The notes under the pieces were generated by a model that was not told the DNA's origin, searched no databases, and saw only the letters and a list, made by a program, of their open reading frames with translations. 64,000 bases of DNA. Source: Brachionus plicatilis (taxonomy: Eukaryota; Rotifera; Eurotatoria; Ploima; Brachionidae). The position numbers and the translations under genes were made by a program. The stretch is from positions 1,012,571 through 1,076,570 of the forward strand of contig QEOQ01000256.1 of assembly GCA_010279815.1 (NCBI GenBank). Reading direction: 5' to 3'. Position 1 is the stretch's first letter. Each line of letters begins with the position of its first letter. Positions 7,912 through 59,217 of this stretch are shown here, piece by piece.

Positions 7912-10900
7912 TTCGACGAAATGAAGCTATTTATTGTTTGATCGGCTTTGGAATTGGAATAGGATGTTGTTTAGTGTATAAATGGTTTCGGACTACGATG
8001 TTTACTTTTAGCTATATTGACACAAAACCGCTTACCGAGTCCCAAAACAATACTCTAAATAAAAAAGATAATGAAAATGATTTATTGTTAGTCAATTGTG
8101 ACAAAAAAAGGATCCGGTCATCTTTTTCAGATTCTGTATTTAAACGAAAAAAATCACCTAAAACAAAACGGGTCGATAAAGCCAGCAATTTGAGTGTAAA
8201 AATTAACTTTAGCCAAGGATTTGGCTTCAATTTGATCAAGTATTTGAACAGACTGTCATTTAAAAATTCGAAATATAAAAGGCCTTTGAGTCGTTTGAAA
8301 CAATTTCAAGTAAATAAAAAAAAAAAGAACATTTTTCAGAAAAGCGATCATGTATCTTCTATTAGAGATGATTTTTTTTCGGCTAAAATTTCGAGTTTAG
8401 ATCCAACATCGAATTTTGATTCAACAAAAAATGTAGACAAGACTGATAAAAATAGTGATTTAGAGAAAAAGTTGTTGAATTTTGGATTAAAAAAAAGCTC
8501 GGAAAATTTGTGTAGAAATGGTGATATTAATAATTCATTTTTGGATTTTTCCAACTGTCTTACAGTCAAAGAAGAAAACAAAAATGATAGTTTATTTGGT
8601 GATGATGATGATTTATTTGAAGTTCAAACCGATTTGAGCAAAAAAAATTGTAATTTTGACATCGAAAACTTATCAGGTAAATAATAATTTTTTTAAACTA
8701 ACAAATAATCTCCTAAAAAATTGACTAATTTATTCTCAAAATATTTATTTTTCAAAGAAAATTTCAACATTAATTTTTTTTAGTTCTTAACTTTAGAATA
8801 ATTTTTTGCAGAATTATAAGAATTTTTATCACATTTTCTAAAATACAGAATAATTTTTACCAAAATTTCAATTTTTTTGGCTTACTATTTTGCCGCCAAA
8901 AAATATACTATCAAACAAAAACATTGGTTTTTTGTAAAAAAAATTTTTATTAAATAGTTTCAATTTATATTAAATATTTTTTAACTAAAAGATTCAATTT
9001 ATTTTAATGTACTAAAGGTTGTTTCTTAATTTTAGTTTATATTTTTTACGTACCAGTCTTTTGCTTTCACGCTTCTTTTTGAAAACAATATTTTTAAAGC
9101 TAAAAACTATTTGGATCAGTTTGGTCTTAAGTGCGGAATACTACAATATATTTGCAAAATTTTTTAAATTTTGCTAAATAATTTTTAAAATAATTTTTAC
9201 ATATGGAAAGTTTTTTTTTTCTATTTTACATTTTTAGAAACAATTGCGTAATTAAATTTCAAATTTTAACATCCTTAAGTATTTAGTTTAAATTAAACAA
9301 CATAATTTCAAAATTTCAAAAAAGTTAAATAGAAAAAAAAACTTGCCATATGCAGTTTCTAAATTGCCATTAAGCTTTAATAAACTTTACACATTTTAAG
9401 CATCTATTGAGTACATTAGATTGATCAAAGTCAAGTTTAAAATTATTTATCACTTTTAAATTCAGTCATTTTTAAATGTTTAATAAAAGGTATAAGTGAT
9501 TTTTATATATTTTAGAGCTATTTCCAATGAGCGTATTTTTATAGCTATTTTATATTATGTGTCTTTAGTGTCCTTTTCTTTTTGAGGAGAATATTCTGTC
9601 CTATTGAGTCTTTTAGTGTACTTTTGTGTGTGTCCACATTTGAAAATTTAAATTTTTCTAAAATTTAAGAACTTTTTTTCTAGATATTTTCTCATTAATA
9701 TTTCTCAGGAAATTTGGCTGAGAAATAATTTTTTTTATTTTGTTTAAAAATATAGCATCAATGACAAGACAAAACGAATTTTTTATTAAATAGTTTCAAT
9801 TTGATTGAGTCAACAATTCCTAAACAACATTCAGCAATTTGCATAAAAAAAGTACAGAATATTTTCCTTACATTGAAAAGAACACTAAAGGACACAAAAG
9901 GACAAAATTTAATTCTTTTTAAGTATGGGACACAAAAGGACAGAATATTCTTCTTACATAGAAAAGGACACAAAAGAACATAAAAGAATTTTTAGTATTA
10001 AATTCAAGCTCATTGTCAATCCATGATATTTTAGAAACATATTTTTTTAAGAACGAATGATTCTAATTAACTCCAATTTTTTGTTAATAGGAATTTTGGA
10101 ACGGAAAAATACATGGATAGACAATGAATTTAAATAATTAAAAAAACGTTTTCCTTTCTGTACTTTTTGTACTTTTTCTAATTATCTTATTTGGCCCTCT
10201 TACTTTTTGTACTTTCTGTACTTTTTGTACTTTTTCTAATTATTTTATTTGGCCGTTTTACTTTCTGTACTTTTTGTACTTTATCAGTATTTTAATTATC
10301 AAATTAAATTTAACGGGGTCCGGGGCGGAGCCCTGGTTTAGGGATTCGGGTATGTAAAAGATAAGAGAAATTTTAGTTAAAATAATATTAATAATTAAAA
10401 TTTTTATTTTTTGTAATGTTTTTTTTTTTAATTGGATAAAGTACAGAAAGTACAAAAAGTAAAACGGCCAAATAAAATAATTAGAAAAAGTACAAAAAGT
10501 ACAGAAAGTACAAAAAGTAAGAGGGCCAAATAAGATAATTAGAAAAAGTACAAAAAGTACAGAAAGTACAAAAAGGACCAGGGCTAAATGAATAAATTAG
10601 AAAAAGTACAAAAAGTACAGAAAGTACAAAAAGTAACAGGTCCAAATAAAATAATTAGAAAAAGTACAAAAAGTACAGAAAGTACAAAAAGGACCAGGGC
10701 GAAATAAATAAATTAGAAAAAGTACAAAAAGGACCATGGCGAAATAAATAAATTAGAAAAAGTACAAAAAGTAAAAAAAGGATTTACTTTTAAATTTTTT
10801 CATTGTCTGTACCTCGAAAAATAAGTCAAAAGTCAAAAATTGATTCTCTAGACTATTAAAGTTGATCAGTTGTTTTTTAAGATTAATTATTATTTTCAAA

Positions 10901-23325: not shown

Positions 23326-24623
23326 ATGAAAAAATATTTGACAATACAGTCTTCAAAAAGTACGATTTTTAAAGACCAAACAAACAGCGCTCTTATAACA
23401 AATATATGCGACAACAATAATCATACAAGTCTCGAACCTAGCCAACCTAAAATTGATTTTCATCTCGATAATGATAAAAGGAAATTTTTATTTAATTGGT
23501 TTGCATTATATCCTTGGCTAGAATACAATATTGAAATAAATAAAGCATTTTGTTACGCATGCAAGACTTTCTCATCAAATAATACAAATAAAGCGTTTAT
23601 TTCAGAAGGTTATGCAAATTGGAAAAACGCTATTAGTAGCTTTATCAAACATCAAAATTCAGAAAGTCATAAATTTGCAACTGAAAAATGGGCTTTGAAA
23701 AAACTAAATAATAAAAAATGTCTAGAATTGTTAAACGTTCATCAGGCGAAAGTTCAAAATGAGAATAGATCAAATTTAAAAAAAATAATTGAAATTGTCA
23801 TGTTACTCGGAAAACAAGGCCTTGCTTTTAGAGGACATAATGAAAGCGATACTTCTAGAAATAAAGGAAATTTCAAGGAAGTCTTAAATTGGTATGCTAA
23901 AAAAGATAGCTCACTTAGAAGCTTTATTTCAAATACAAAGAATGCAACCTATTCCTCTTGTACCATACAGAATGAACTGATTAGCATTATATCAAATCAA
24001 ATGGTTGCTAACTTAATAAAATCAATAAATTCTAATGCTCAGAAATCGAAAATTTTACTGATGTAAAAGATCAATTTAAAAGTGTTTTTTTCAAACTAAT
24101 AAATAACATAATCGATCAACTTAAAGAGAGATTTAGTGACGATTTAATTCCAATTACATACATTTACGATATACTTTTTGACAATAAAAAAAAATTTGAC
24201 TTAAAGGATTTGGAAACAAATTTAGACATATATAAAGAGATAATTAACTTCGATAACTAACTTAGTGAAATTAATGTCTGGCAAAATTTTAGGAAAAATG
24301 ATGAGTTTAATTATAAAATAGAAGTAAATTGTATATATAAGTTAAAAGAAATTTTTATAGTAAATAATCTAATAACATTGTTTCCGACGATTTCTAAACT
24401 ATTTCAGATATATTTAACTATACCAATTTCATCAGCTTGCGCTGAACCTTCATTTTCATGTTTAAAACGACTTAAGACTTGGATTAGAAACACAATCTCA
24501 CAAGAACGTCTTTCTAGTTTAGCAATTTTATATATTGAAAAAGAAGAACTAGAGCTTTTAAATTTAGATAGTATTGTAGATATTTTTTCATCAATCAAAG
24601 ACAGAAAGACTTGTTTCAACTAA
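23326..24623 (+). pseudogene. hAT transposase (TTF-finger/DUF4371 type), internally deleted
   Basis: The ATG at 23326 opens 246 codons with the TTF-type zinc-finger region: FNWFALYPWLEYN, INKAFCYACKTF, then GYANWKNA and HQNSESHKFA. It proceeds to LGKQGLAFRGH, the usual start of the DUF4371 segment, and stops at 24064. The frame shifts, and the C-terminal part continues from about 24045 to 24623 with one stop (TAA at 24258). It ends in ISSACAEPSFSCLKRLKTW, the hAT dimerisation motif. The central RNase H-like region is missing, so the protein cannot be a complete transposase. Confidence 0.88.
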
Positions 24624-27333: not shown

Positions 27334-28003
27334 GGGAGACTCTATTGCAACACTTTGTGTCAATGGTATAGGCTATTGACACATGATATCATTTTTAATC
27401 TAAGATTTTTTTAAAATTTTTATTATATAAAGGAGTTTTTAATTGAAATATAAAGATATAAATTTTTAAGTCAAAAGAAAACCAAATATTTAATAATAAT
27501 TTATTTTTTGGATCGCGTTCGCTTTGAAACAGGACTTTGTGTATCATTTTTACAACAGTAAAAAGGATATGGGGCAATACTTGTTGAAGACATGAAAAAT
27601 GCCTCAGACAATTTTTTTTTCAAATATTCTTATAAATATGAATGTGCTGATTTAGAATTTATGTATTTTAGTTCAATATGATTGAATTTTTCATGCTTTA
27701 TAATCAATAGAAAAAATAATTAAAAAATTATCCAAATTTTTAATTTTTACAATAAAAAACAAATTTATTACGTTTTTTAAATTTTGATCCTATCTAAAGG
27801 AATGAAGCGAATGTTTCCGGTCTTAGCATTTTTAATATATTGTTAAGAGACAAAAAATAAGTAAAAAAAAGTATCTTTGAAAATTTTTGAGTTGGGGATA
27901 TTTTACTCCAGAGACTCTAGAAGACAAGCACCTTTTATTTTGTTTAATTTAGTTTATTTTGATAAAACTATAAAAGTTACCAAAATATAAATTTAATTTT
28001 CAG

Positions 28004-28146
28004 ATTCCTTAAAGAAATTTGTTCAAGAAAACTTTTTACCAGGGAAAAATAAGTATCCATATCACCCTTATAGAACTAAAAAGAAAGATTCCCGGCCAAA
28101 ATGTGGCAAAACTTTTATTGATTATAAAGCATTTCATGCTTTATAA
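28004..28146 (+). pseudogene. Coding-like exon inside the foldback element
   Basis: After a good acceptor (TTTAATTTTCAG, ending 28003) an open frame reads SLKKFVQENFLPGKNKY, then PYHPYRTKKKDSRPKCGKTF, and ends at TAA 28144-28146. Composition is more codon-like than its surroundings. No family is recognised; it is probably cargo or transposase of the element, but a host exon cannot be excluded. Confidence 0.4.
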
Positions 28147-28705
28147 TTAAAAATTTGGATAATTTTTTAATTATTTTTTCTATTGATTATAAAGCATGAA
28201 AAATTCAATCATATTGAACTAAAATACATAAATTCTAAATCAGCACATTCATATTTATAAGAATATTTGAAAAAAAAATTGTCTGAGGCATTTTTCATGT
28301 CTTCAACAAGTATTGCCCCATATCCTTTAAATTTTTAAGATTTTTTCATATCAGATCCCGTTGATTAGCTTTGAAATTTAGTTAAAATCTGAAAGATTCA
28401 ATTAAAAACTTATAATTATTAATAGAATAATTTTCTCTCATTCGGAGAAAAGTTTGATAATTTCAATTATTATTTTCAATTTAAAAAATATTTTATATAA
28501 ATTTAGAAATCAGATATTTGAAATTGTTTCTTCACAAAATTCTTCCTATCAAAAAAAAAATATAGAAAATAGTATTATTTTAAATAAGTTCATTAGAATA
28601 TTTTTGAAAATTGAATGTCTTCAACTAAAAATTTGCTAAATAAATGCATTTAACTGTGAATAAAAAAGATTAAAAGAATATATATTTATTTAATAGATAT
28701 ATTCC

Positions 28706-28799: not shown

Positions 28800-28913
28800 A
28801 GCGATAAGATGTTTGCCAGGGAACAAGAGTTTGTTGACAAAGAGAAAAGGTTGAAAAACTTTTTGGTCGACACACAAAGTCCCGTTTCAAAGCGTACGCG
28901 GTTCAAAAAATAA
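28800..28913 (+). pseudogene. C-terminal coding fragment in the foldback right arm
   Basis: An open frame ends SDKMFAREQEFVDKEKRL, then KNFLVDTQSPVSKRTRFKK and a TAA at 28911-28913. The last part is mirrored by the left arm (27500-27560). It looks like the basic C-terminus of an element-encoded protein; no family is assigned. Confidence 0.35.
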
Positions 28914-29110
28914 ATTATTATAAAATATTTGGTTTTCTTTTGACTTAAAAATTTATATTTTTAAATTTCAATTAAAAACTCCTTTATATAATAAAAATTT
29001 TAAAAAAATCTTAGATTAAAAATCATATCATGTGTCAATTGACTACACTATTGCAACACTATGTGTCAATAGCCTATTCTATTGACACATAGTGTTGCAA
29101 TAGACACTCC

Positions 29111-31018: not shown

Positions 31019-31754
31019 NNNNNNNNNNNNNNNNNNNNNNNNNNNNNNNNNNNNNNNNNNNNNNNNNNNNNNNNNNNNNNNNNNNNNNNNNNNNNNNNNN
31101 NNNNNNNNNNNNNNNNNNNNNNNNNNNNNNNNNNNNNNNNNNNNNNNNNNNNNNNNNNNNNNNNNNNNNNNNNNNNNNNNNNNNNNNNNNNNNNNNNNNN
31201 NNNNNNNNNNNNNNNNNNNNNNNNNNNNNNNNNNNNNNNNNNNNNNNNNNNNNNNNNNNNNNNNNNNNNNNNNNNNNNNNNNNNNNNNNNNNNNNNNNNN
31301 NNNNNNNNNNNNNNNNNNNNNNNNNNNNNNNNNNNNNNNNNNNNNNNNNNNNNNNNNNNNNNNNNNNNNNNNNNNNNNNNNNNNNNNNNNNNNNNNNNNN
31401 NNNNNNNNNNNNNNNNNNNNNNNNNNNNNNNNNNNNNNNNNNNNNNNNNNNNNNNNNNNNNNNNNNNNNNNNNNNNNNNNNNNNNNNNNNNNNNNNNNNN
31501 NNNNNNNNNNNNNNNNNNNNNNNNNNNNNNNNNNNNNNNNNNNNNNNNNNNNNNNNNNNNNNNNNNNNNNNNNNNNNNNNNNNNNNNNNNNNNNNNNNNN
31601 NNNNNNNNNNNNNNNNNNNNNNNNNNNNNNNNNNNNNNNNNNNNNNNNNNNNNNNNNNNNNNNNNNNNNNNNNNNNNNNNNNNNNNNNNNNNNNNNNNNN
31701 NNNNNNNNNNNNNNNNNNNNNNNNNNNNNNNNNNNNNNNNNNNNNNNNNNNNNN
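31019..31754. other. Assembly gap (736 N)
   Basis: All bases are N. Nothing can be said about the content. Its presence shows the sequence is a scaffold, relevant to judging large inverted repeats elsewhere. Confidence 1.
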
Positions 31755-45909: not shown

Positions 45910-46760
45910 CAGTACAGTCCGTTTATAACGAACACGCTTATAGTGAAAATTCGTTTTTAACGAAAATAAATTTTATATTTGGCAGAACAAGAATCTTTTC
46001 AATGTAATTTCTTATGAGTATAACGAAGTTCGGATATTACGAAAATTCGGTTATTACGAATCACTTTTTAACAAATATTAGTGAGTTTCTCTTGGTTTAT
46101 AACGGAGTTAGGAAAAAAAATATTTTTGGTTTCTTTGTTTTTGTTAGATTTTAAAGAATAAGTACTAATTTATCTAATTCTAATTGCGAGGAACGAGCCA
46201 AGCCGAGACGAGCTTAATAACCAAACAAGACCATTCGGTTTTGGACTGAATCAATTTGATTTGAGGGGAAAGTAAGCAGAACTATTGGATTAGATTCGAA
46301 TTGATTCGCGAAAAAACTATCATCTATTGGATAAAAATCCAATTACAGCACAAACAAAAATATCTTTTAACGTTTCGTTATTCGCATATTTAAAGCTCTT
46401 CTTCACTATCTTATAATAAGACTAATCTTTGAAAATTAAAGAATTTATAAATTGCTTGAAAATTCACACATTTACCTTTATAAATAAAAAAAAATGTATT
46501 CATAAAAATAATTTCATGATTATGCGAATATTGATCAAGATCTGGCTATACATCAAGAAAAAACAGACGACGAAATAATCAATTTAATTAATAAAAAAAA
46601 CGTACAATCAGACGAAGTTTTAAATTAGTCAAGATATGACGAATCAGATAACGAATCTTCAAATTTTATCGAATCATTTCAGGACGAAAATTTATCAAAT
46701 CAACAAGCTTTAAAATTAATTGATCAATTAAGAAAACATCTTTCAAAATCTACACACAAT
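45910..46760 (+). mobile_element. pogo/Tigger element, left portion with transposase C-terminal codons
   Basis: Begins after a TA with CAGTACAGTCCGTTTATAAC, a pogo-like terminus, with further TATAACGAA-type motifs to about 46110. At about 46515-46760 a frame reads DQDLAIHQEKTDDEIINLIN, then one TAG, then SRYDESDNESSNFIESF and QQALKLIDQLRKHLSKSTHN. This acidic-then-helical tail is typical of Tigger transposase C-termini. Coding is cut at the hAT-like copy starting 46761; the continuation is found in reverse at 51293-51198. Confidence 0.75.
46753..46760. repeat. Target-site half CACACAAT
   Basis: 8 bp directly left of the first 2,079-bp element. Its exact reverse complement, ATTGTGTG, sits left of the second copy (51294-51301) rather than a direct copy at 48840. 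Confidence 0.95.
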
Positions 46761-48839
46761 CAGACAATTTAACGCATTTTTTTTTGAGTATGAGTGTGAG
46801 TTTGAGTGATAAGCACTCAACTCTCACTCACACTTGATCACGCATAATTTTAGCGTGATACACTCACACTCACACTCAAAACGTATTTTTTTGCGTGACA
46901 CAATTTAAAAATATTTTAAAATTTTTCTTTTTTTTTAATGTCAAAATAAATAAAATTAAATTTTAAACATTTTGAAATATTTTTTAAGTTCGAATTTTTA
47001 TTTAAATAGGCAAAAGCTAGCACAAACAGTTGATTGAGAACTTGATTTATTTTTGCTTTAAAATTTTTCTCATTTATCAATATTTTATACGGAATAATTT
47101 CATGATGTTTTAGTTGATTTAATAATTATATATTTGATAAAAATAATATTAATTTTGTTTAATTTTTTAATTATTTATTTTAAAAAAATCAAAATAAATT
47201 GATTTCATTTTATACCAAAAGGAACAATTAGATCTCTTGAATAATCTAAATAACTGGTAAAAATTCTTCTGATTCTGATAAATATGAAAACAGGGATTTT
47301 CACGAATATGTGTTAAGGGTGATTAGAGTCTGATATTAAATAATGAAGAAGCTTTGTTTATGGATTTAATATTAAGATTCCGCTTAGTTGTATCCGAAGT
47401 TAATATATATTAATACATTTAAGCCCAAATCATAACTTTTGATAAGTTAGATTAAAGCTTGTGACTTAAATATAAGCCTGATTTTTTTAATTTTTGGACT
47501 ATTAATTCAATCAAAAATTTTTTCAGAAGTTTAACCACTATCGTCTGCTTTATATGTTTTTTTTTAAACATCTATCTTTAAAATTTTGAATTAAAATACG
47601 CCTTGTGTATAATTCAAAAATAAGTAAAACTATTTAGCCTTACGTTACTTTCTTAATTTTAAATTATAGAATCGATACAGTCAATACAAATAGCTAAAAA
47701 ACTGAAATTGTAGCTCAACTTTAAACTTGGACAGAAAAATTAAAAAGACAGGTTTTAATTCGGCGTCGTACCATTCTGATCTAAGCGTTTTTGAATTTAT
47801 ATCTTATTTTTTCTATCAAAATGTATAAAATTAACAAAAGTTTGGGTTGGTGCGATACGGTGCATTAGATATTACTATCTTTGATTATTATTAGAGTCGT
47901 TTAGTTTTAAAATATCCACTTTGGTAATGTTTATCGATTTGAGGAAAAAACAATAGAAGAAAAGAAAAAAATTCCTTTCTTAAGTTTTGTGAAATTTGGA
48001 ACTTAAAACAGAAAATAAACGTGCAAGAAATCTTTTTTAGAGGTTGAAGGCTTGCTTTTCAAATTCAACATAGTAAAACATACAAAAATACTTCAACTTT
48101 AAAACCTATTACTGATGTGCAAAATCTCTGCAAAATGCAGTTGTCTTGGACATATTTAAATTTAATTTCTGCCAAATTCGCAGAGTTTAATGCTAATAAT
48201 GATTCAATTATGCATGTCGCATAATATTGAATTTAAATAACAAGTTTTTACTTAAAGAAACAAACCAAGAAGATTTTTCAAGTTAAAAATTTTTTTTAAC
48301 TTCACATAGCTCTATTTTCTTTATTTAATTAAGTTCGTTTCAATCCAGTTTTTTCCTAAAAAATTTTTAAAGTATTTTTTCAAATATCAACGAAATGTAA
48401 GGGAGTCCAAGCGAACAAATTGAAACCAACTTAAGGCTCCCTAATTTCTTAATCTTACTAAAAAAATAATATATTTTATTTTTAATTTCAAGATTAATAA
48501 AGATATTGTTCTAATACAAAAAATTTTTTTAAAAAGTTTAAAACTAAAAATAAATCGAGTTCTCAATCAACTGTTTGTTCTAGCTTTGGCCTATTTAAAT
48601 AAAAATTCGAACTTAAAAAATATTTCAAAATGTTTAAAATTTAATTTTATTTATTTTGACATTAAAAAAAAAGAAAAATTTTAAAACATTTTTAAATTGT
48701 GTCACGCAAAAAAATACGTTTTGAGTGTGAGTGTGAGTGTATCACGCAAAAATTATGCGTGATCAAGTGTGAGTGAGAGTTGAGTGCTTATCACTCAAAC
48801 TCACACTCAAAATGAGCCTAATTTGAGTGAAAATGTCTG
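46761..48839 (+). mobile_element. hAT-like non-autonomous element E, copy 1 (2,079 bp)
   Basis: Begins CAGACAATTTAACGC and ends (reversed) CAGACATTTTCACTC. Terminal inverted repeats are about 300 bp and contain dense GAGTGTGAGTGTGAG / GATAAGCACTCAACTC motifs and GTGTCACGC. The interior has no long ORF. Copy 2 (51302-53380) has the same length and is near-identical in inverse orientation. Flanks are CACACAAT on the left and CTTTTAAT on the right (48840-48847), which do not match each other. Confidence 0.93.
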
Positions 48840-49321
48840 CTTTTAATAAATAATCAAAGCTAAAAACATGTCTTTTAAGATTTGTTTTTGTAAGAAAAAT
48901 TGATTACTTTCGAAATATATTAAGTTCATTACCGAAAAAAGAATTTTTAAAAAATTTTTTTTTAAATTCAAGATTCTGATCTTCAATGAAGACTAAATCT
49001 TCAATTAAAAGTTCGAAGTCTGACTTTGACTTTTCACTATTAGTATTATTATTATTTTTTTCAGCCTCATAGGAAATTAATAATTAAAAAAAAGAGAAAA
49101 AAAAAAGTTGAACCGAAAACTCGAAGATACAACTGCGGGGTTAAAAAACGAAAATTCAGTTGAAATGCAGTCATTTAACTTGTGTTTCACATTAAAAAAT
49201 AGTTTATAGGACGGGTTAATATTGAATTTTCTTTTGTAGTGTCTCATTAAATTTTTGGGCTAAATGCATCGATTGAAACTGTAAATTCGGTTTCAAACGA
49301 TTCATAGAAAAACAAAAAAAT

Positions 49322-49840
49322 TTTCGATTGTCCCCAGTCACAAAAAAAACGATGATTAATCGATGAAAATTGATAGATGAATCATTAATGAGTTGGGAAC
49401 CATTTCATCGAAATTCATCGATGAAAATTAGAATATTTCATCGGTAATAATCGATGAAAAAATACTCTAATACATCATAATTTTTTCAAATTTTTCATTA
49501 ATATTTCAAATTATTTTAAAGAAGACAATAATAAGCAGAAGTTTTGAAAACATAAGTTTTTTTTCCAAATTTTTTCAAAGTTTATCCACACTTTTGATTC
49601 ATTAAAAACATCAATTCACTTTTTCTCAATAGAAAAAATTTGATGTTTTACTTTTGAGTAAATTATTAGCTTTAGAATTGTGGTTTATTGTCTTTTAAAT
49701 AGACTAAAGGCAGCTTGAGTAAATTTTTGAAACAAAGAACAGTGCTAGCAACCCAATTAGACATATAGTCCTTTGTTAAGAGGAGATCCACTAGAAACAC
49801 AATTAATTAAGAATTTACAGTAATTATCAGCTTTTTATAA
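49322..49840 (+). repeat. Dispersed repeat D, copy 1
   Basis: Shares CCCAGTCACAAAAAAA, GATGATTAATCGATGAAAAT, AATAAGCAGAAGTTTTG and GAGGAGATCCACTAGA with 54390-55665. This copy lacks the mariner-type MITE present in the other one, so it shows the empty site. Boundaries are approximate. Confidence 0.75.
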
Positions 49841-50392
49841 AGTTAAATTTCCAGAAGTATTCGATATTTCAGCTTCATATCTTTCGTCTAGTAGAGTGTG
49901 TAATTCTTCTAAAATGTCTGAATATATAATTTTCCTACTGTTTTCCTCATTTTTACAGTATTTTACGATTTATACCCTTAAATATCAAAATTTAATTTTG
50001 TTATGGTTTATCTAAAAAAAAAAAATTTTCCTTTTGATTTTGAAACTTAAAAAGAAATAAAAAATTATTGATATTTAAAATAAAATTAAAAAAATAAGCG
50101 TAAATTTTTTTTATATTTTGATTTTTTTGTTTGGCTCAAATTAGACCCGTCTTGGCCGTTAACGTAGTTTTCTAAATTTTCGACTGACAAGAGTTAAAAG
50201 CTGTTAGATCAAATTTAAATAACAAGAGAAGATGGGATGGCCTGTTGTTGACATAAGCCAATAAAAGAAAAAGGAAAGTCGAAATCGATATCTTTTAAGC
50301 ACAAAACTTTATACGAATATACTTTTTAGGAATATCGATTTGTGTTTCTTATTCCTTTTTATTTACAATAAATAGCAAAATTTTTGTTGTAA

Positions 50393-50810
50393 CAGTCGAG
50401 CTTCGTTATAACGAATTGCTTCGTTCCAAAAAGAGTGTTCGTTATACAGAGGTCTCCATTATTAATGAATGAGAAAAAAATAAATTTATTTATATAGAAA
50501 TATTTATTAAAAGTGAAAAAAAAATTAATTGGTTTTTATAAAAGTGGATTTTTTTGATTGCTTAAGTTTTACTTTATTGCCAATTTCCTTTTCTAATTCG
50601 ACGATCTTTTTCAATAAAAAACGATTATCATTGTCATCTGCTAGCAAAAAATCTTATTGTTTTTGTAATATTTCCAAAAATTCTGCTTTTCAAATAATTT
50701 GCTTAGGTTCGTTTTCTTGATCATCTTCATCTTCAAATGATTCAGAATTTGGTATTTGATTGCGTTTTTGAAGCACTTGGTTTATTATTTCTCGGATTGA
50801 GTATCATTTT
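50393..50810 (-). pseudogene. pogo/Tigger transposase C-terminal remnant, second copy
   Basis: Minus strand reads REIINQVLQKRNQIPNSESF, then EDEDDQENEPKQII, a stop, and a Lys-rich helix to KQSKKSTFIKTN at about 50529. It is followed by a pogo-like end reading CAGTCGAGCTTCGTTATAAC at 50393. The acidic patch then helix mirrors the remnant at 46515-46760. Two internal stops. Confidence 0.6.
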
Positions 50811-51026
50811 TCCCTCTGTAATTTTTTCCTTGCATAATTTTTTCCCTGTTAAATTTTTTGCCTCTTAATAATCTATGATAAAATCAGCCAATTAGGAAAA
50901 AGATTAATTAAATAAAATTAACCATTTAACTCTGACTTTTTAAGAAAAAATAAAATGTCTTTATCTAAAACCCATAATTCAAATTTCTAGCTCAATACCT
51001 GAGTGAAAAGCTTAGCTGTCTAAATA

Positions 51027-51293
51027 CAGTGAAGTACGGTTATAACGAAGTCATCCAAAATGAATCCAAAAGCAGTTCGTTATAAACGAATTTTGTTATA
51101 TCCAAATAAAAGAAAATAATGTTATTTTTAAAGTTTTTATTAATTTAAAAAGTATAATCTAGTACAATAAATCATAATTCATCAGAAATCAAAAAAATTA
51201 TTTTTTAAAAAAATCCAATATTGTTTTTTGTTTGACCATTAAGCCAAAAATTTCGGTTTCAATGCTTTCCAAATTTTCAATAGACGTTTCAAA
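51027..51293 (-). pseudogene. pogo/Tigger right end and last transposase codons
   Basis: On the minus strand, 51293-51198 reads FETSIENLESIETEIFGLMV, then KQKTILDFFKK and TAA (51198-51200). The terminus, read on the plus strand, is CAGTGAAGTACGGTTATAAC at 51027, preceded by TA. The QK-x-I-x-DFFKK ending is a common pogo/Tigger C-terminus. Its coding joins in frame to the end of the plus-strand fragment at 46760 if the spacer is flipped back. Confidence 0.8.
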
Positions 51294-51301
51294 ATTGTGT
51301 G

Positions 51302-53380
51302 CAGACATTTTCACTCAAATTAGGCTCATTTTGAGTGTGAGTTTGAGTGATAAGCACTCAACTCTCACTCACACTTGATCACGCATAATTTTTGCGTGAT
51401 ACACTCACACTCACACTCAAAACGTATTTTTTTGCGTGACACAATTTAAAAATGTTTTAAAAATTTTCTTTTTTTTTAATGTCAAAATAAATAAAATTAA
51501 ATTTTAAACATTTTGAAATATTTTTTAAGTTCGAATTTTTATTTAAATAGGCCAAAGCTAGAACAAACAGTTGATTGAGAACTCGATTTATTTTTAGTTT
51601 TAAACTTTTTAAAAAAATTTTTTGTATTAGAACAATATCTTTATTAATCTTGAAATTAAAAATAAAATATATTATTTTTTTAGTAAGATTAAGAAATTAG
51701 GGAGCCTTAAGTTGGTTTCAATTTGTTCGCTTGGACTCCCTTACATTTCGTTGATATTTGAAAAAATACTTTAAAAATTTTTTAGGAAAAAACTGGATTG
51801 AAACGAACTTAATTAAATAAAGAAAATAGAGCTATGTGAAGTTAAAAAAAATTTTTAACTTGAAAAATCTTCTTGGTTTGTTTCTTTAAGTAAAAACTTG
51901 TTATTTAAATTCAATATTATGCGACATGCATAATTGAATCATTATTAGCATTAAACTCTGCGAATTTGGCAGAAATTAAATTTAAATATGTCCAAGACAA
52001 CTGCATTTTGCAGAGATTTTGCACATCAGTAATAGGTTTTAAAGTTGAAGTATTTTTGTATGTTTTACTATGTTGAATTTGAAAAGCAAGCCTTCAACCT
52101 CTAAAAAAGATTTCTTGCACGTTTATTTTCTGTTTTAAGTTCCAAATTTCACAAAACTTAAGAAAGGAATTTTTTTCTTTTCTTCTATTGTTTTTTCCTC
52201 AAATCGATAAACATTACCAAAGTGGATATTTTAAAACTAAACGACTCTAATAATAATCAAAGATAGTAATATCTAATGCACCGTATCGCACCAACCCAAA
52301 CTTTTGTTAATTTTATACATTTTGATAGAAAAAATAAGATATAAATTCAAAAACGCTTAGATCAGAATGGTACGACGCCGAATTAAAACCTGTCTTTTTA
52401 ATTTTTCTGTCCAAGTTTAAAGTTGAGCTACAATTTCAGTTTTTTAGCTATTTGTATTGACTGTATCGATTCTATAATTTAAAATTAAGAAAGTAACGTA
52501 AGGCTAAATAGTTTTACTTATTTTTGAATTATACACAAGGCGTATTTTAATTCAAAATTTTAAAGATAGATGTTTAAAAAAAAACATATAAAGCAGACGA
52601 TAGTGGTTAAACTTCTGAAAAAATTTTTGATTGAATTAATAGTCCAAAAATTAAAAAAATCAGGCTTATATTTAAGTCACAAGCTTTAATCTAACTTATC
52701 AAAAGTTATGATTTGGGCTTAAATGTATTAATATATATTAACTTCGGATACAACTAAGCGGAATCTTAATATTAAATCCATAAACAAAGCTTCTTCATTA
52801 TTTAATATCAGACTCTAATCACCCTTAACACATATTCGTGAAAATCCCTGTTTTCATATTTATCAGAATCAGAAGAATTTTTACCAGTTATTTAGATTAT
52901 TCAAGAGATCTAATTGTTCCTTTTGGTATAAAATGAAATCAATTTATTTTGATTTTTTTAAAATAAATAATTAAAAAATTAAACAAAATTAATATTATTT
53001 TTATCAAATATATAATTATTAAATCAACTAAAACATCATGAAATTATTCCGTATAAAATATTGATAAATGAGAAAAATTTTAAAGCAAAAATAAATCAAG
53101 TTCTCAATCAACTGTTTGTGCTAGCTTTTGCCTATTTAAATAAAAATTCGAACTTAAAAAATATTTCAAAATGTTTAAAATTTAATTTTATTTATTTTGA
53201 CATTAAAAAAAAAGAAAAATTTTAAAATATTTTTAAATTGTGTCACGCAAAAAAATACGTTTTGAGTGTGAGTGTGAGTGTATCACGCTAAAATTATGCG
53301 TGATCAAGTGTGAGTGAGAGTTGAGTGCTTATCACTCAAACTCACACTCATACTCAAAAAAAAATGCGTGAAATTGTCTG
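51302..53380 (-). mobile_element. hAT-like non-autonomous element E, copy 2 (2,079 bp, inverted)
   Basis: Same length as copy 1 and near-identical after reverse complement; one visible difference is the C in AATTTCACGC against A in copy 1. Flanks: ATTGTGTG left (51294-51301) and ATTAAAAG right (53381-53388). ATTAAAAG is the exact reverse complement of the right flank of copy 1. Confidence 0.93.
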
Positions 53381-53388
53381 ATTAAAAG

Positions 53389-53712
53389 CAAGTTTTTCAA
53401 ATTTTAATACGGCATTAAGGCTTGAGATTTTTTCAAAAAATAAAAAATAAAATAATGATTTTTTCTTTCCAATTTAAAGCGCTGGATCAAATGTAAAATT
53501 ATAAAAAAACAATTTTAATTTTCACTAAAAAATCTAAATTCTAAGATGGACGAGATGGAATGTTTAATCGAGATAAATTGTACGGATAAAATGCAAGACT
53601 CGTGGTATTAAAATAATTTATAATTTAAAGGTCAAAATAAGAAAATTTAAAGATTTTAAGCATAAGCTAATCAAAGAGTAGATACTTCGCAGCGGAATCT
53701 TTATATTAAAGA
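53389..53712. other. Spacer with a possible pogo-like coding scrap
   Basis: Near 53545-53600 a plus frame reads KMDEMECLIEINCTDKMQDSWY and then stops. Function not assignable. Otherwise AT-rich. Confidence 0.3.
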
Positions 53713-54038
53713 GCTATTGACAATGAGCGTGTTTTTAAAGCTAAATATTCTTTTGTGTTCTTTTGAGTCCTTTTCTTAGTAAGAATAATAAATTTTCCTT
53801 TTGTGTATTTTTGTGACCTTTTCGTTATAAATTAGGTTATTTAACTTAAATAAATTTTTTTCAAAATTTGGGTCAATATACTGAATTTTTCTAATATTTG
53901 AATGAATCCAATACTCAAAAATGATTCTAATTATGATTAATCTTATAAATCAAAAAGATAAAAGGACAAAATATTGTGCTTACTAGGTAAGGGACACACA
54001 ATTTTTAGTATTAAAAATAAGCTCATTTTTAATCCATG
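53713..54038. mobile_element. TIR repeat family C, copy 2
   Basis: Left end GCTATTGACAATGAGCG and right end (reversed) CATGGATTAAAAATGAGC correspond to copy 1 at 9517-10025. Internal GGACACACAA / TTGTGTTCTTTTG motifs are shared. The flanks do not give a clear duplication. Confidence 0.65.
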
Positions 54039-54059
54039 ATATAATCCACACACCAAAGT

Positions 54060-54290
54060 AATTTTATTATTTAATAACAATCTTTAATCACCCTTAACAC
54101 ATATTCGTGAAAATCTCAATCTTTTTTTTATTTATAAGAATAAGAAGAATTTGTACACATCATTTAGATTATTCAAAAAATTTAATTGTTCAATTAGTTA
54201 AACAAGGTAATGATTTCAATAAAATAACAGAGACATTTCGTGATATAGCAAAAAAAGAAAGAAGTGGGATTTTTTATTTTGTAGCTTGAA
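54060..54290 (+). pseudogene. Coding relative of part of element E, HTH-like
   Basis: About 54075-54200 matches the interior of element E (AATCACCCTTAACACATATT, CGTGAAAAT, TTTAGATTATTCAA) but here remains open: HLDYSKNLIVQLVKQGNDFN then KITETFRDIAKKERSGIFYF. LVKQGNDFNKI resembles the first helix-turn-helix of Tc1/mariner-type or hAT DNA-binding regions. It suggests that E's interior derives from a coding transposon. The domain call is tentative. Confidence 0.4.
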
Positions 54291-54389
54291 AGTTTAAATT
54301 TTTCAGTTCATTTGACAAGAACATAACAGACTTAAATATAGTATAGTAAATTTATTAGATTTATTTTTATTTCAGTCAAAAAACCTGAA

Positions 54390-55665
54390 TAAACCCAGTC
54401 ACAAAAAAATGATGATTAATCGATGAAAATTGTCAGATGAATCATTAATGAGTTAGGAACCATTTAATCGAAAATAATCCATTGAAAAATATTCTAATAC
54501 ATCATGATTTATTTAATTTTTAAAATAATATTTATTTTAATTATTCAAATTATTTATAAGATACAGTGCTGCTACGATACCATGAATTCACCATATTTTA
54601 CGTAAAATATGGTAATCTAAAAAACGGTATCTATCGTAAAGTAACGATAATTATCGTCAATTTCCTATAATTATTGTAAAATTCAGTAAAAAAAAAAAAA
54701 TCCAAAATTTCTCCAAAAAAACTTTTCATTAAAAAAATTTTTTTTTTGAATTTTTTGAAAAAGTAAGAAAAAATAAAATTTTGATTGACTTTATGACCAA
54801 AATTAACGTAAATTTCAGTAAATCATTGTAAAAAATGGTGAAAATGGTAAAAAAATCAACAAAAAAGGAAGAATTGATTTTTTTTTATTTAATTTTTACA
54901 CTTATTGATGTTTATATTTTAATTATTTACCTGAACCAAGATATAGCTTCTTCTGAATAAAATACAAAAAACAAAATGTTGCTAAATAAAATAAAATTAA
55001 GATTTAAAAGAAGAGTAAAAATGATTTAGTAAATAAGTTGTTCAACTAGGTGAATTTTTACTGTTAGTTAAAATATCAAGAGTCTTAAAATTTATTAGGC
55101 GGTAGCAAATATATCTATGAATCATTATCGCCCATTTTTACCATTTTTTACAATGATTTACCGAAATTTACGTTAATTTTAGTCAAAAAATTCAATCAAA
55201 ATTTTATTTTTTCTTATTTTTTTCAAAAAATTCAAAAAAAAATTTTTTTTAATGAAAATAGGTTTTTTTCGAGAAATTTTGAAATTTTTTCTTTTCACTG
55301 AATTTTCAATAATTATGGGAAATTGACGATAAATACCGTTCTTTAGGTTACCATATTTTACACTAAATATGGTAAAATATCGTTAATTTACCATAATTTA
55401 CGTAAAATATGGTGAATTCATGGTATCATTACAGTACTGTAAGAAGATAATAATAAGCAGAAATTTTAAAAACATAAGTTTTTTTTCAAAATTTTTTCAA
55501 ATTTTATCTAAACTTTCGATTGATAAAGAAAATCAATTCACTTTTTCTCAATAGAAAATCAAAGAACATAGCTATTAATCAAATTAGATATAAAATCCTT
55601 AGATAAGAGGAGATCCACTAGATACACAATTGATTAAGAATTTACACTAACTATCGGCTTTATGT
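54390..55665 (+). repeat. Dispersed repeat D, copy 2, interrupted by a MITE
   Basis: Two parts (about 54390-54563 and 55440-55665) align with repeat D copy 1; the interruption is exactly the mariner-type element 54564-55439. The second part lacks about 120 bp present in copy 1. Confidence 0.75.
54564..55439. mobile_element. Mariner-type MITE, 876 bp, TA target
   Basis: Inverted ends CAGTGCTGCTACGATACCAT and (reversed) CAGTACTGTAATGATACCAT extend through GAATTCACCATATTTTACGT. TA dinucleotides flank both ends (54562-54563, 55440-55441). The paralogous repeat D copy at 49.5 kb shows the empty site. The interior is inverted along most of its length and has no ORF. The left end is also rich in TTTACGTAAA-type short palindromes. 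Confidence 0.88.
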
Positions 55666-57536: not shown

Positions 57537-59217
57537 ATGTTAAACCAGGCCATTAGATCAACCCTGCTTAATTGCAGCGTGCTCAAGAGTTCGCTGTTGA
57601 GAGGACAACCAGCCATTTGCAATGGTTCGTACAGCACTTCGGCCGAAGCGGTGGACGATGTGAACTTCTACAAAATGGTCGAGATGTTCTATGACAGAGC
57701 GGCCACCATTGTCGAGGACAAAATGGTCGAGGAAATGAAGTCTCGCGACACTCCCGAAGTAAAACGCAACAAAATAAAAGGAATTCTTAAGGTGATCAAG
57801 CCATGCAACCACGTTTTGGAGATGACTTTTCCTGTCAAAAGAGACAATGGAGAATTTGAGATAATCGAAGCTTGGCGAGCGCAGCACTCCCAGCATCGTG
57901 CACCGTGCAAGGGAGGAATCCGCTACTCCAAAGATGTGTGCATTGACGAAGTAAAAGCACTCTCTGCTTTGATGACTTTCAAATGTGCATGTGTTGACGT
58001 TCCTTTTGGCGGCGGAAAAGCCGGCGTAAAAATCAATCCAAAAGAGTATTCTGAAGCCGAGCTGGAAAGAATTACGCGCCGCTTTGCCGTTGAGCTGTCC
58101 AAAAAGGGATTCATTGGACCCGGCATTGACGTGCCCGCGCCAGACATGGGCACTGGCGAGAGAGAAATGGCATGGATAGCCGACACCTACGCCAACACCC
58201 TTGGCCACTCTAACATCAACGCGTTCGCTTGCGTGACCGGCAAGCCAATATTGCAGGGAGGCATCCACGGAAGAACGTCAGCTACTGGTCGTGGTATTTA
58301 CCACGGCATCGACAACTTTGTCAACGAGGCCTCGTTCATGTCCCAGGTCGGTCTTTTGCCGGGCGTCCAAAACAAGACCTATATTGTGCAAGGCTTTGGC
58401 AATGTCGGCCTTCACTCAATGAGATATTTGACCAGACATGGGGCCAAGTGTGTTGGCGTTTTGGAATGGGACTGTGCCATTGTCAACCCAGACGGTATTG
58501 ACCCCAAAGAGTTGGAAGACTACAAAATTGAGCATGGAACAATCAAGGGATTTCCGGGCGCTCAGCCATATGCAAAAGAAAACATAAGCGATTTGCTCAC
58601 TGAAAAATGCGACATCTTGGTGCCGGCTGCAAGCGAAAAACAGATCACTAAACACAATGCCGAGAGAATACAGGCTAAAGTTATTGCCGAAGGCGCCAAT
58701 GGCCCTGTTACCCCCGAAGCAGATGAAATTTTAAAAAAGAAAAATGTACTTGTAATTCCAGATTTGTACATAAACGCTGGTGGAGTCACTGTCTCCTACT
58801 TTGAATGGCTCAAAAACTTGAACCATGTGAGCTATGGCCGACTGACATTCAAGTATCAAAAAGACACCAATTATCATTTGTTGGGAAGTGTTCAAGATTC
58901 GCTTGTCAAACAGTTCGGTGGCAAATTGGCCATTGAGCCAAGCGCTGAATTTCTGAAAAGAATGGCTGTAAGTCATCTTTTTTTTTTTTGGTTTTAAGTT
59001 GTTAGAAAGTTGAATTGAATTTTTTTTTTTTATTAAGGGCGCTTCTGAAAAAGACATTGTTCACTCAGGTTTAGAATATTCAATGGAACGATCTGCAAAA
59101 GCTATTATGAGAACTGCCATGAAATATAATCTGGGCTTGGACATCAGAACTGCTGCCTATGTAAATGCCATTGAAAAGGTAGTCAAAGTGTACGAGAGTG
59201 CTGGATTCACATTTTAA
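57537..59217 (+). CDS. GLUD1: Glutamate dehydrogenase, mitochondrial
   Basis: Converts glutamate to 2-oxoglutarate and ammonia with NAD(P)+ in the mitochondrial matrix. Two exons (57537-58967 and 59038-59217) join in phase 0 to 536 codons; vertebrate GLUD1 is about 558. The N-terminus ([20 protein letters not shown]) is basic and Ser/Leu-rich, as in a mitochondrial transit peptide. PCKGGIRY and [14 protein letters not shown] hold the substrate site and catalytic Lys. [24 protein letters not shown] (the Rossmann glycine motif) and [12 protein letters not shown] follow. The second exon encodes [19 protein letters not shown] and the C-terminal helix. The antenna region of animal hexameric GDH is present in exon 1. 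The intron is 70 bp, GTAAGT...AAG. GC content is far above the flanks, and codon choice is stronger than in neighbouring remnants. Confidence 0.98.

Follow-up and report, generated by a model that had tools for sequence, protein, structure and literature searches.

Two inverted hAT-like element copies with exchanged target-site duplications around an inverted 2.5-kb segment in Brachionus plicatilis: a possible trace of hybrid element insertion

Structure of the locus

The window analysed here is a stretch of 64,000 nucleotides of the rotifer Brachionus plicatilis (positions 1,012,571 to 1,076,570 of the forward strand of contig QEOQ01000256.1, assembly GCA_010279815.1), and the subject is a pair of copies of a non-autonomous hAT-like transposable element located between window positions 46753 and 53388. 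In the assembly the two copies stand in opposite orientation, share a recent ancestor, have exchanged their target-site duplications (X and Y, named after the respective insertion sites), and enclose a spacer that is reversed at X. The copies and their flanks are arranged as follows:

46753..46760, + strand: L1 CACACAAT, target-site duplication X, left half; 4/4 fetched paralogs carry it once, at an empty site
46761..48839, + strand: copy 1, a non-autonomous hAT-like element with the ends CAGACA/TGTCTG
48840..48847, + strand: R1 CTTTTAAT, target-site duplication Y, one half, carried at present by the inverted spacer
51294..51301, + strand: L2 ATTGTGTG, target-site duplication X, second half, in reverse
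51302..53380, - strand: copy 2, the same hAT-like element, inverted, differing from copy 1 at 2 of 2,079 positions
53381..53388, + strand: R2 ATTAAAAG, target-site duplication Y, second half

Each copy is 2,079 bp long, and copy 1 aligns with the reverse complement of copy 2 with 0 gaps and 2 substitutions (99.90% identity). The first difference is A at 46771 in copy 1 against C at 53370 in copy 2, the second A at 48678 against T at 51463, copy 2 being read as its reverse complement in both cases. Copy 1 has long inverted repeats of ca. 310 bp (46761-47068 and 48531-48839), of which the outermost ca. 30 bp are diverged. No open reading frame of at least 80 amino acids is found within 46000-54500, so at this threshold the element has no coding capacity.

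The flank L1 agrees with the reverse complement of L2 in 8/8 positions and R1 with that of R2 in 8/8, which gives 16/16 in total, and the flanks of one and the same copy match poorly (L1 with R1 in 4/8 positions for copy 1, L2 with R2 in 4/8 for copy 2). Exact reverse-complement pairs of 8-mers were obtained in 65 of 400,000 random draws from the window (1.6e-4), and the chance of two such matches is ca. 2.6e-8. Both the coordinates of the copies and the exchange of their duplications had been proposed in an earlier note made from the sequence alone, and they proved exact, with neither copy having a matching pair of its own.

The element family and its target-site duplications

A genome search with the element gave at least 145 matches (the best 40 of 543 candidates being scored), from which 32 family loci (L033-L064) were fetched and analysed, listed places such as C68, C90, and C15, among others, being left out. 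Both ends are exact in seven of the 32 loci, and the flanks of these seven match in 8/8 positions in five cases, in 7/8 in L051, and in 1/8 in L044. The five perfect duplications are GATCTAGT, CTTGAGAG, CTTATAAA, TTCATGAG, and ATTGTGAA. Under a looser rule for the ends, L056, L058, and L063 have a degenerate second end and flanks matching in 3/8, 5/8, and 2/8 positions, respectively, their ends being doubtful, while one end is found in 12 loci and none in ten; one of these ten, L049, has decayed ends and flanks matching in 7/8. Matching 8-bp duplications are the rule among well-kept copies of the family, and the window pair, with flanks reciprocal between the copies, departs from this rule. 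The flanks of L044 (C6:1001600-1003387), unrelated despite the exact ends (ATTATTAA and CACGCCAT), are possibly another product of exchange or recombination; no partner copy lies within ca. 9.5 kb on either side of it.

The target-site duplications of hAT elements have the consensus nTnnnnAn and their terminal repeats the consensus YARNG. The first is fitted by five of the seven perfect duplications (CTTTTAAT, CTTGAGAG, CTTATAAA, TTCATGAG, and ATTGTGAA) and not by CACACAAT, GATCTAGT, or the imperfect duplication of L051, and the element terminus CAGAC agrees with the second in 4/5 positions. A search with the hAT transposase domain (PF05699) gave 150 matches (the best 150 of 357 candidates), whose places were compared by eye with those of the family. 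C47, carrying the domain match nearest a family copy, was rejected as an autonomous relative, since family ends are absent from the 4.6 kb fetched around this domain. The 308-bp terminal repeat used as a query pointed to the same family places among the matches listed (the best 40 of 70 candidates). Among the PF05699 matches listed, with C47 as the one followed up, no transposase linked to the element family was found. The name hAT-like, given in the earlier note, is borne by the 8-bp duplications, the five that have the nTnnnnAn form, and the CAG...CTG ends, while a linked transposase to complete it was not found; these features are consistent with a hAT identity of the family, which we infer, and "hAT-like" is the right strength for it.

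A match to the hAT dimerisation domain (PF05699, 40.4 bits) is located in the window at 24375-24542, far from the copy pair. On C67 two family loci ca. 37 kb apart, L052 and L053, form an inverted pair of a larger repeat holding part of the family element. They were rejected as a parallel case, being 93% alike over 1,900 columns with a likeness that extends beyond the family part, as expected of a larger repeat.

A second inverted pair in the genome

Two close, inverted, near-identical pairs were examined in the genome, one with exchanged duplications, i.e., the window pair, and one in which each copy has its own. The latter is located on C74 (180300-190200, L079), a place reached through two equal-scoring hAT-domain matches on opposite strands. 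It consists of inverted 754-bp copies (L079 positions 776-1529 and 8215-8968) that are 6.7 kb apart and differ by 1 mismatch. They have the ends TAGTGTTGTGAGTCGACTA and belong to a hAT family distinct from that of the window pair. One copy is bordered on both sides by ATTATTAG and the other by GTAAGCAT, so that close, inverted, near-identical pairs need not show exchanged duplications. Pieces of the C74 family are found elsewhere at 98-100% (on C23, C3, C43, C152, and C100), together with one nearly complete copy at 90% (on C45). With such fresh pieces elsewhere, two independent recent insertions are easy to account for on C74, unlike in the family of the window pair.

Ancestral order of the spacer

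The left insertion site X lies inside another transposable element, which we take to be pogo/Tigger-like and which the order of the assembly splits in two. This host element and the spacer comprise the following features:

45910..46760, + strand: left part of the split host element, with the end CAGTACAGTCCG and TA before it
46181..46418, no strand assigned: nested repeat of ca. 238 bp in the left host part, with at least 27 matches elsewhere at 89-97% (best 40 of 1,176 candidates)
48840..51301, - strand: inverted spacer of 2,462 bp, whose right end belongs, reversed, beside 46760 according to the paralogs on C29, C40, C2, and C69
49333..50317, no strand assigned: repeat of ca. 985 bp lying whole within the inverted spacer, with 8 nearly full-length matches at 90-95% among the best 40 of 290 candidates
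51027..51301, - strand: right part of the same host element, with the end CAGTGAAGTACGG at 51027 adjoining TA

Among the matches listed for the left flank, four other places (on C40, C29, C2, and C69) reach its very last base, and these were fetched as paralogs of the host element. In all four the site X is empty: CACACAAT is present once and is followed by the reversed sequence of the window from 51293 downward, so that what is now 51301-51025 is joined to this flank the other way round. Used as separate queries, left flank and spacer match the same places on C29 and C40, where the ends of the two matches overlap by exactly 8 bp (C29:180827-180834; C40:364877-364884). The paralog on C2 (L068, 867-1727) is a complete element of 861 bp with opposed ends and TA beside each, whereas in the window the host ends at 45910 and 51027 are both read on the + strand, a polarity impossible for an intact element. 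Compared with the paralogs, the site X is complete. The reading frame to the left of it continues across the joined site into the reversed end of the spacer, with a stop at a place common to C29, and the host element is broken by an in-frame stop further to the left of X. A third pogo-like end, CAGTCGAGCTTCG, is located in the spacer at 50393 on the + strand, 634 bp from the end of the host element, and perhaps belongs to a second pogo-like fragment.

Because the four paralogs with the empty site carry the opposite order and the two host ends have equal polarity, in the assembly the spacer almost certainly stands reversed with respect to the ancestral order, and it is highly probable that this is also true of the actual DNA. 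The inversion of the spacer had been deduced in the earlier note from the exchanged flanks; it is borne out by these and, separately, by the four empty sites, and its breakpoints fall within the two inverted element copies. For the site Y no paralog was found: among the matches listed, spacer positions 48840-49332 match only themselves, save for one match that starts ca. 24 bases before the nested repeat, and in the genome search the right flank (53381-54042) matches only itself. Nor does the assembly show the region in an alternative haplotype, the unique flanks matching only themselves.

Relatedness of the two copies

The two differences between the copies can be placed on one copy each by comparison with the family. 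At column 11 of the alignment, C, the state of copy 2, is present in 15/15 aligned family rows, and A in copy 1 is on this ground a new, private change. At column 1918, A, the state of copy 1, is present in 29/37 family rows, the others having a gap (3), G (3), or T (2), in a count to which some loci contribute two rows; T in copy 2 is here most likely the new, private change. One private change per copy argues that both copies descend from one recent ancestor copy and are siblings.

The same is suggested by the background identity in the family, determined from 274 alignments of at least 400 bp that cover 248 pairs from the 32 loci and the two copies and may include flanking sequence. The best other pair is 97.56% identical over 737 bp, compared with 99.90% for the copy pair, and the best one in alignments of at least 1,500 bp reaches 95.33%. 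The nearest relative of the copy pair, on C92, has 94.69% identity over 2,128 columns, with more than 100 differences, and among the matches listed in the genome search with the element the next one longer than 400 bp is at 95%. The view of the earlier note that the copies had been independently inserted is not supported: a single private change in each is all that separates them, and among the fetched loci no other pair lies above 97.6% over at least 400 bp. Sibling copies, made by one aberrant transposition or by a local hop followed by recombination, would fit these identities better than two unrelated insertions.

Mechanism of the inversion

The rearrangement is of a known kind, of which the locus provides a new natural case, and two known routes come into question as its mechanism, hybrid element insertion (HEI) and the formation of sibling copies followed by recombination. 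HEI is favoured because of parsimony, as it needs one event in place of two or three, and the identity of the copies, their closeness, their opposite orientation, and the exchange of duplications would all be explained by that event; we put HEI forward tentatively, with slightly less than even confidence. According to Delprat et al. (2009, PMC2775673), HEI and ectopic recombination have much the same outcome, the difference being that the copies are identical after the former and chimeric after the latter, and the window copies, being identical, fit HEI by this criterion.

The single event that we infer would have run as follows. The hAT-like element would first have inserted in the pogo-like element at X (CACACAAT) or, equally possibly, at Y. 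The transposase, probably during replication or just after it, would then have brought together the left end of one chromatid's copy and the right end of the copy on its sister, and the resulting hybrid element would have been inserted 2.5 kb away with each end still attached to its own chromatid. With the ends so attached, the DNA between them would become inverted and one chromatid would gain both copies in opposite orientation, each with the old duplication at one side and the new one at the other. Worked through by hand, the joint insertion of the right end of one sister copy and the left end of the other at Y, on the chromatid whose own copy keeps its right junction, would give X-copy-Y'-reversed spacer-X'-copy'-Y, as seen in the window. 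The locus may in that case be, to state it a shade more cautiously than the mechanism itself, a natural trace, at the level of sequence, of HEI across sister chromatids in which a non-autonomous hAT-like element was doubled and turned and 2.5 kb inverted, all in one event that left identical copies with exchanged duplications.

Several observations weigh against this interpretation. Other family loci give nine short alignments, of 148-222 bp, with identities of 97.7-98.9%, the C74 pair shows that close inverted insertions do occur in this genome, and the ancestral state of Y, in want of a paralog, is deduced from the 8-bp match only. The identity criterion is weak if the parent copies of a recombination event were themselves identical siblings from a local hop, since a crossover between such siblings gives the same sequence, and the copies carry no inherited difference by which chimerism could be scored. 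Moreover, HEI has been described in P elements and related reactions in Ac/Ds, and for the present family, whose transposase was not found, it is putative.

The other route, a possibility to be taken seriously and one held with distinctly less than even confidence, assumes that a local hop made opposite, identical copies, each with its own duplication, and that a crossover between the 2.1-kb arms (ectopic recombination, also termed non-allelic homologous recombination, NAHR) inverted the spacer, which may flip repeatedly. Exchanged duplications, as found here, are an accepted sign of ectopic recombination (PMC2775673, PMC8225341). The arms, long, 99.9% identical, and 2.5 kb apart, would be a good substrate, and another close inverted near-identical pair is present on C74. 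Of the single empty sites expected in the non-inverted state, that of X is seen in 4/4 fetched paralogs, and the flanks of Y match only themselves. Nevertheless, three things are then required, i.e., a close insertion, the opposite orientation, and a crossover, and a burst that could have supplied two independent fresh copies is not seen, since no other pair exceeds 97.6% (at least 400 bp, 32 loci), so that a local hop of a sibling is needed. Chimeric copies would have no marker, as the copies differ by their private changes alone.

An assembly artefact, in which each copy truly has its own duplication and the spacer was placed the wrong way round between the 2.1-kb arms, is improbable. The arms differ at 2 positions, so reads shorter than ca. 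2.1 kb cannot fix the orientation, and the contig, and with it the window, stops 10.6 kb beyond the block. Against this, the 6.6-kb block is free of N and belongs to a contig of 1,076,570 bases, and the assembly has 173 contigs for a total of 102.9 Mb, which suggests spanning reads; a flip made by short-read assembly is unlikely, and we take the assembly as probably correct here. A heterozygous inversion represented once in the assembly is possible.

Inverted arms can convert each other, and two unrelated insertions followed by an inversion might have had their arms made identical later. Gene conversion would then have had to extend over the full 2,079 bp, the terminal base at either end included, leaving no inherited difference; the conversion of unrelated copies is unlikely and the scheme as a whole very improbable. 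Replicative inversion of the bacterial insertion sequence (IS) type would give the same flanks; we know of no replicative intramolecular transposition by hAT elements. The insertion of the whole 6.6-kb block as a composite was rejected on its outer flanks, CACACAAT and ATTAAAAG, which mismatch each other. Reversed-ends transposition (RET) yields inversions with transposons at the breakpoints, and according to PMC8225341 it leaves a new matching duplication pair and a loss between the elements, whereas here both original duplication pairs are present, intact, and exchanged, a pattern wrong for RET; these last three schemes taken together are barely credible.

Comparison with known systems

One of the closest described structures is the Galileo-generated inversion 2z3 of Drosophila buzzatii, with opposite copies at the breakpoints, exchanged duplications, single-copy empty sites, and long terminal inverted repeats (PMC2775673). 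Galileo belongs to the P superfamily, has 7-bp duplications, and made an inversion on the chromosomal scale, compared with 8 bp and 2.5 kb here; its copies are chimeric, which the authors took as proof of recombination (PMC2775673), whereas those in the window are identical. The product predicted for HEI of the Drosophila P element (Gray 1996, 2000, as cited in PMC2775673 and PMC3744419) is likewise an inversion between identical opposite copies with old and new duplications exchanged. The P element is of another superfamily, and what is seen in the window is a possible product alone and not the event itself.

Among hAT elements, maize Ac/Ds, with 8-bp duplications, offers a likeness in its alternative transposition, which takes the forms of RET and sister chromatid transposition: ends belonging to two copies can act jointly, and inversions result (PMC8225341, PMC3744419). 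Unlike the RET inversions described there, with a new matching pair and a piece between the elements lost, both pairs are intact and exchanged in the window. A head-to-head pair of VANDAL21 in Arabidopsis shows that close opposed copies can make a region prone to rearrangement, inversions included (PMC12312487); these changes are somatic, concern another superfamily, and are most commonly deletions of the spacer.

Pairs of transposons are a known source of inversions, and in the present case both breakpoints are intact to the base. The pattern of identity in the family argues for sibling copies, which makes a single aberrant transposition a serious option beside the usual explanation, recombination between independent copies. 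If HEI is the true mechanism, a count of pairs of this kind, feasible in any genome, could serve as a fingerprint separating aberrant transposition from recombination. If confirmed, the combination of exchanged duplications with sibling-level identity against the family background, applied genome-wide, could measure the share of each mechanism in small inversions.

Other features of the window

A perfect inverted repeat of 184 bp is located at 27562-27745 and 28145-28328, within an outer inverted pair at 91% identity (27342-27545 and 28869-29072), and the region probably represents a young element whose inverted ends are long. A run of 736 N (31019-31754), either a gap or a withheld stretch, lies inside an open frame. 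A long open frame spans 57537-58997, and its product presumably resembles animal glutamate dehydrogenase.

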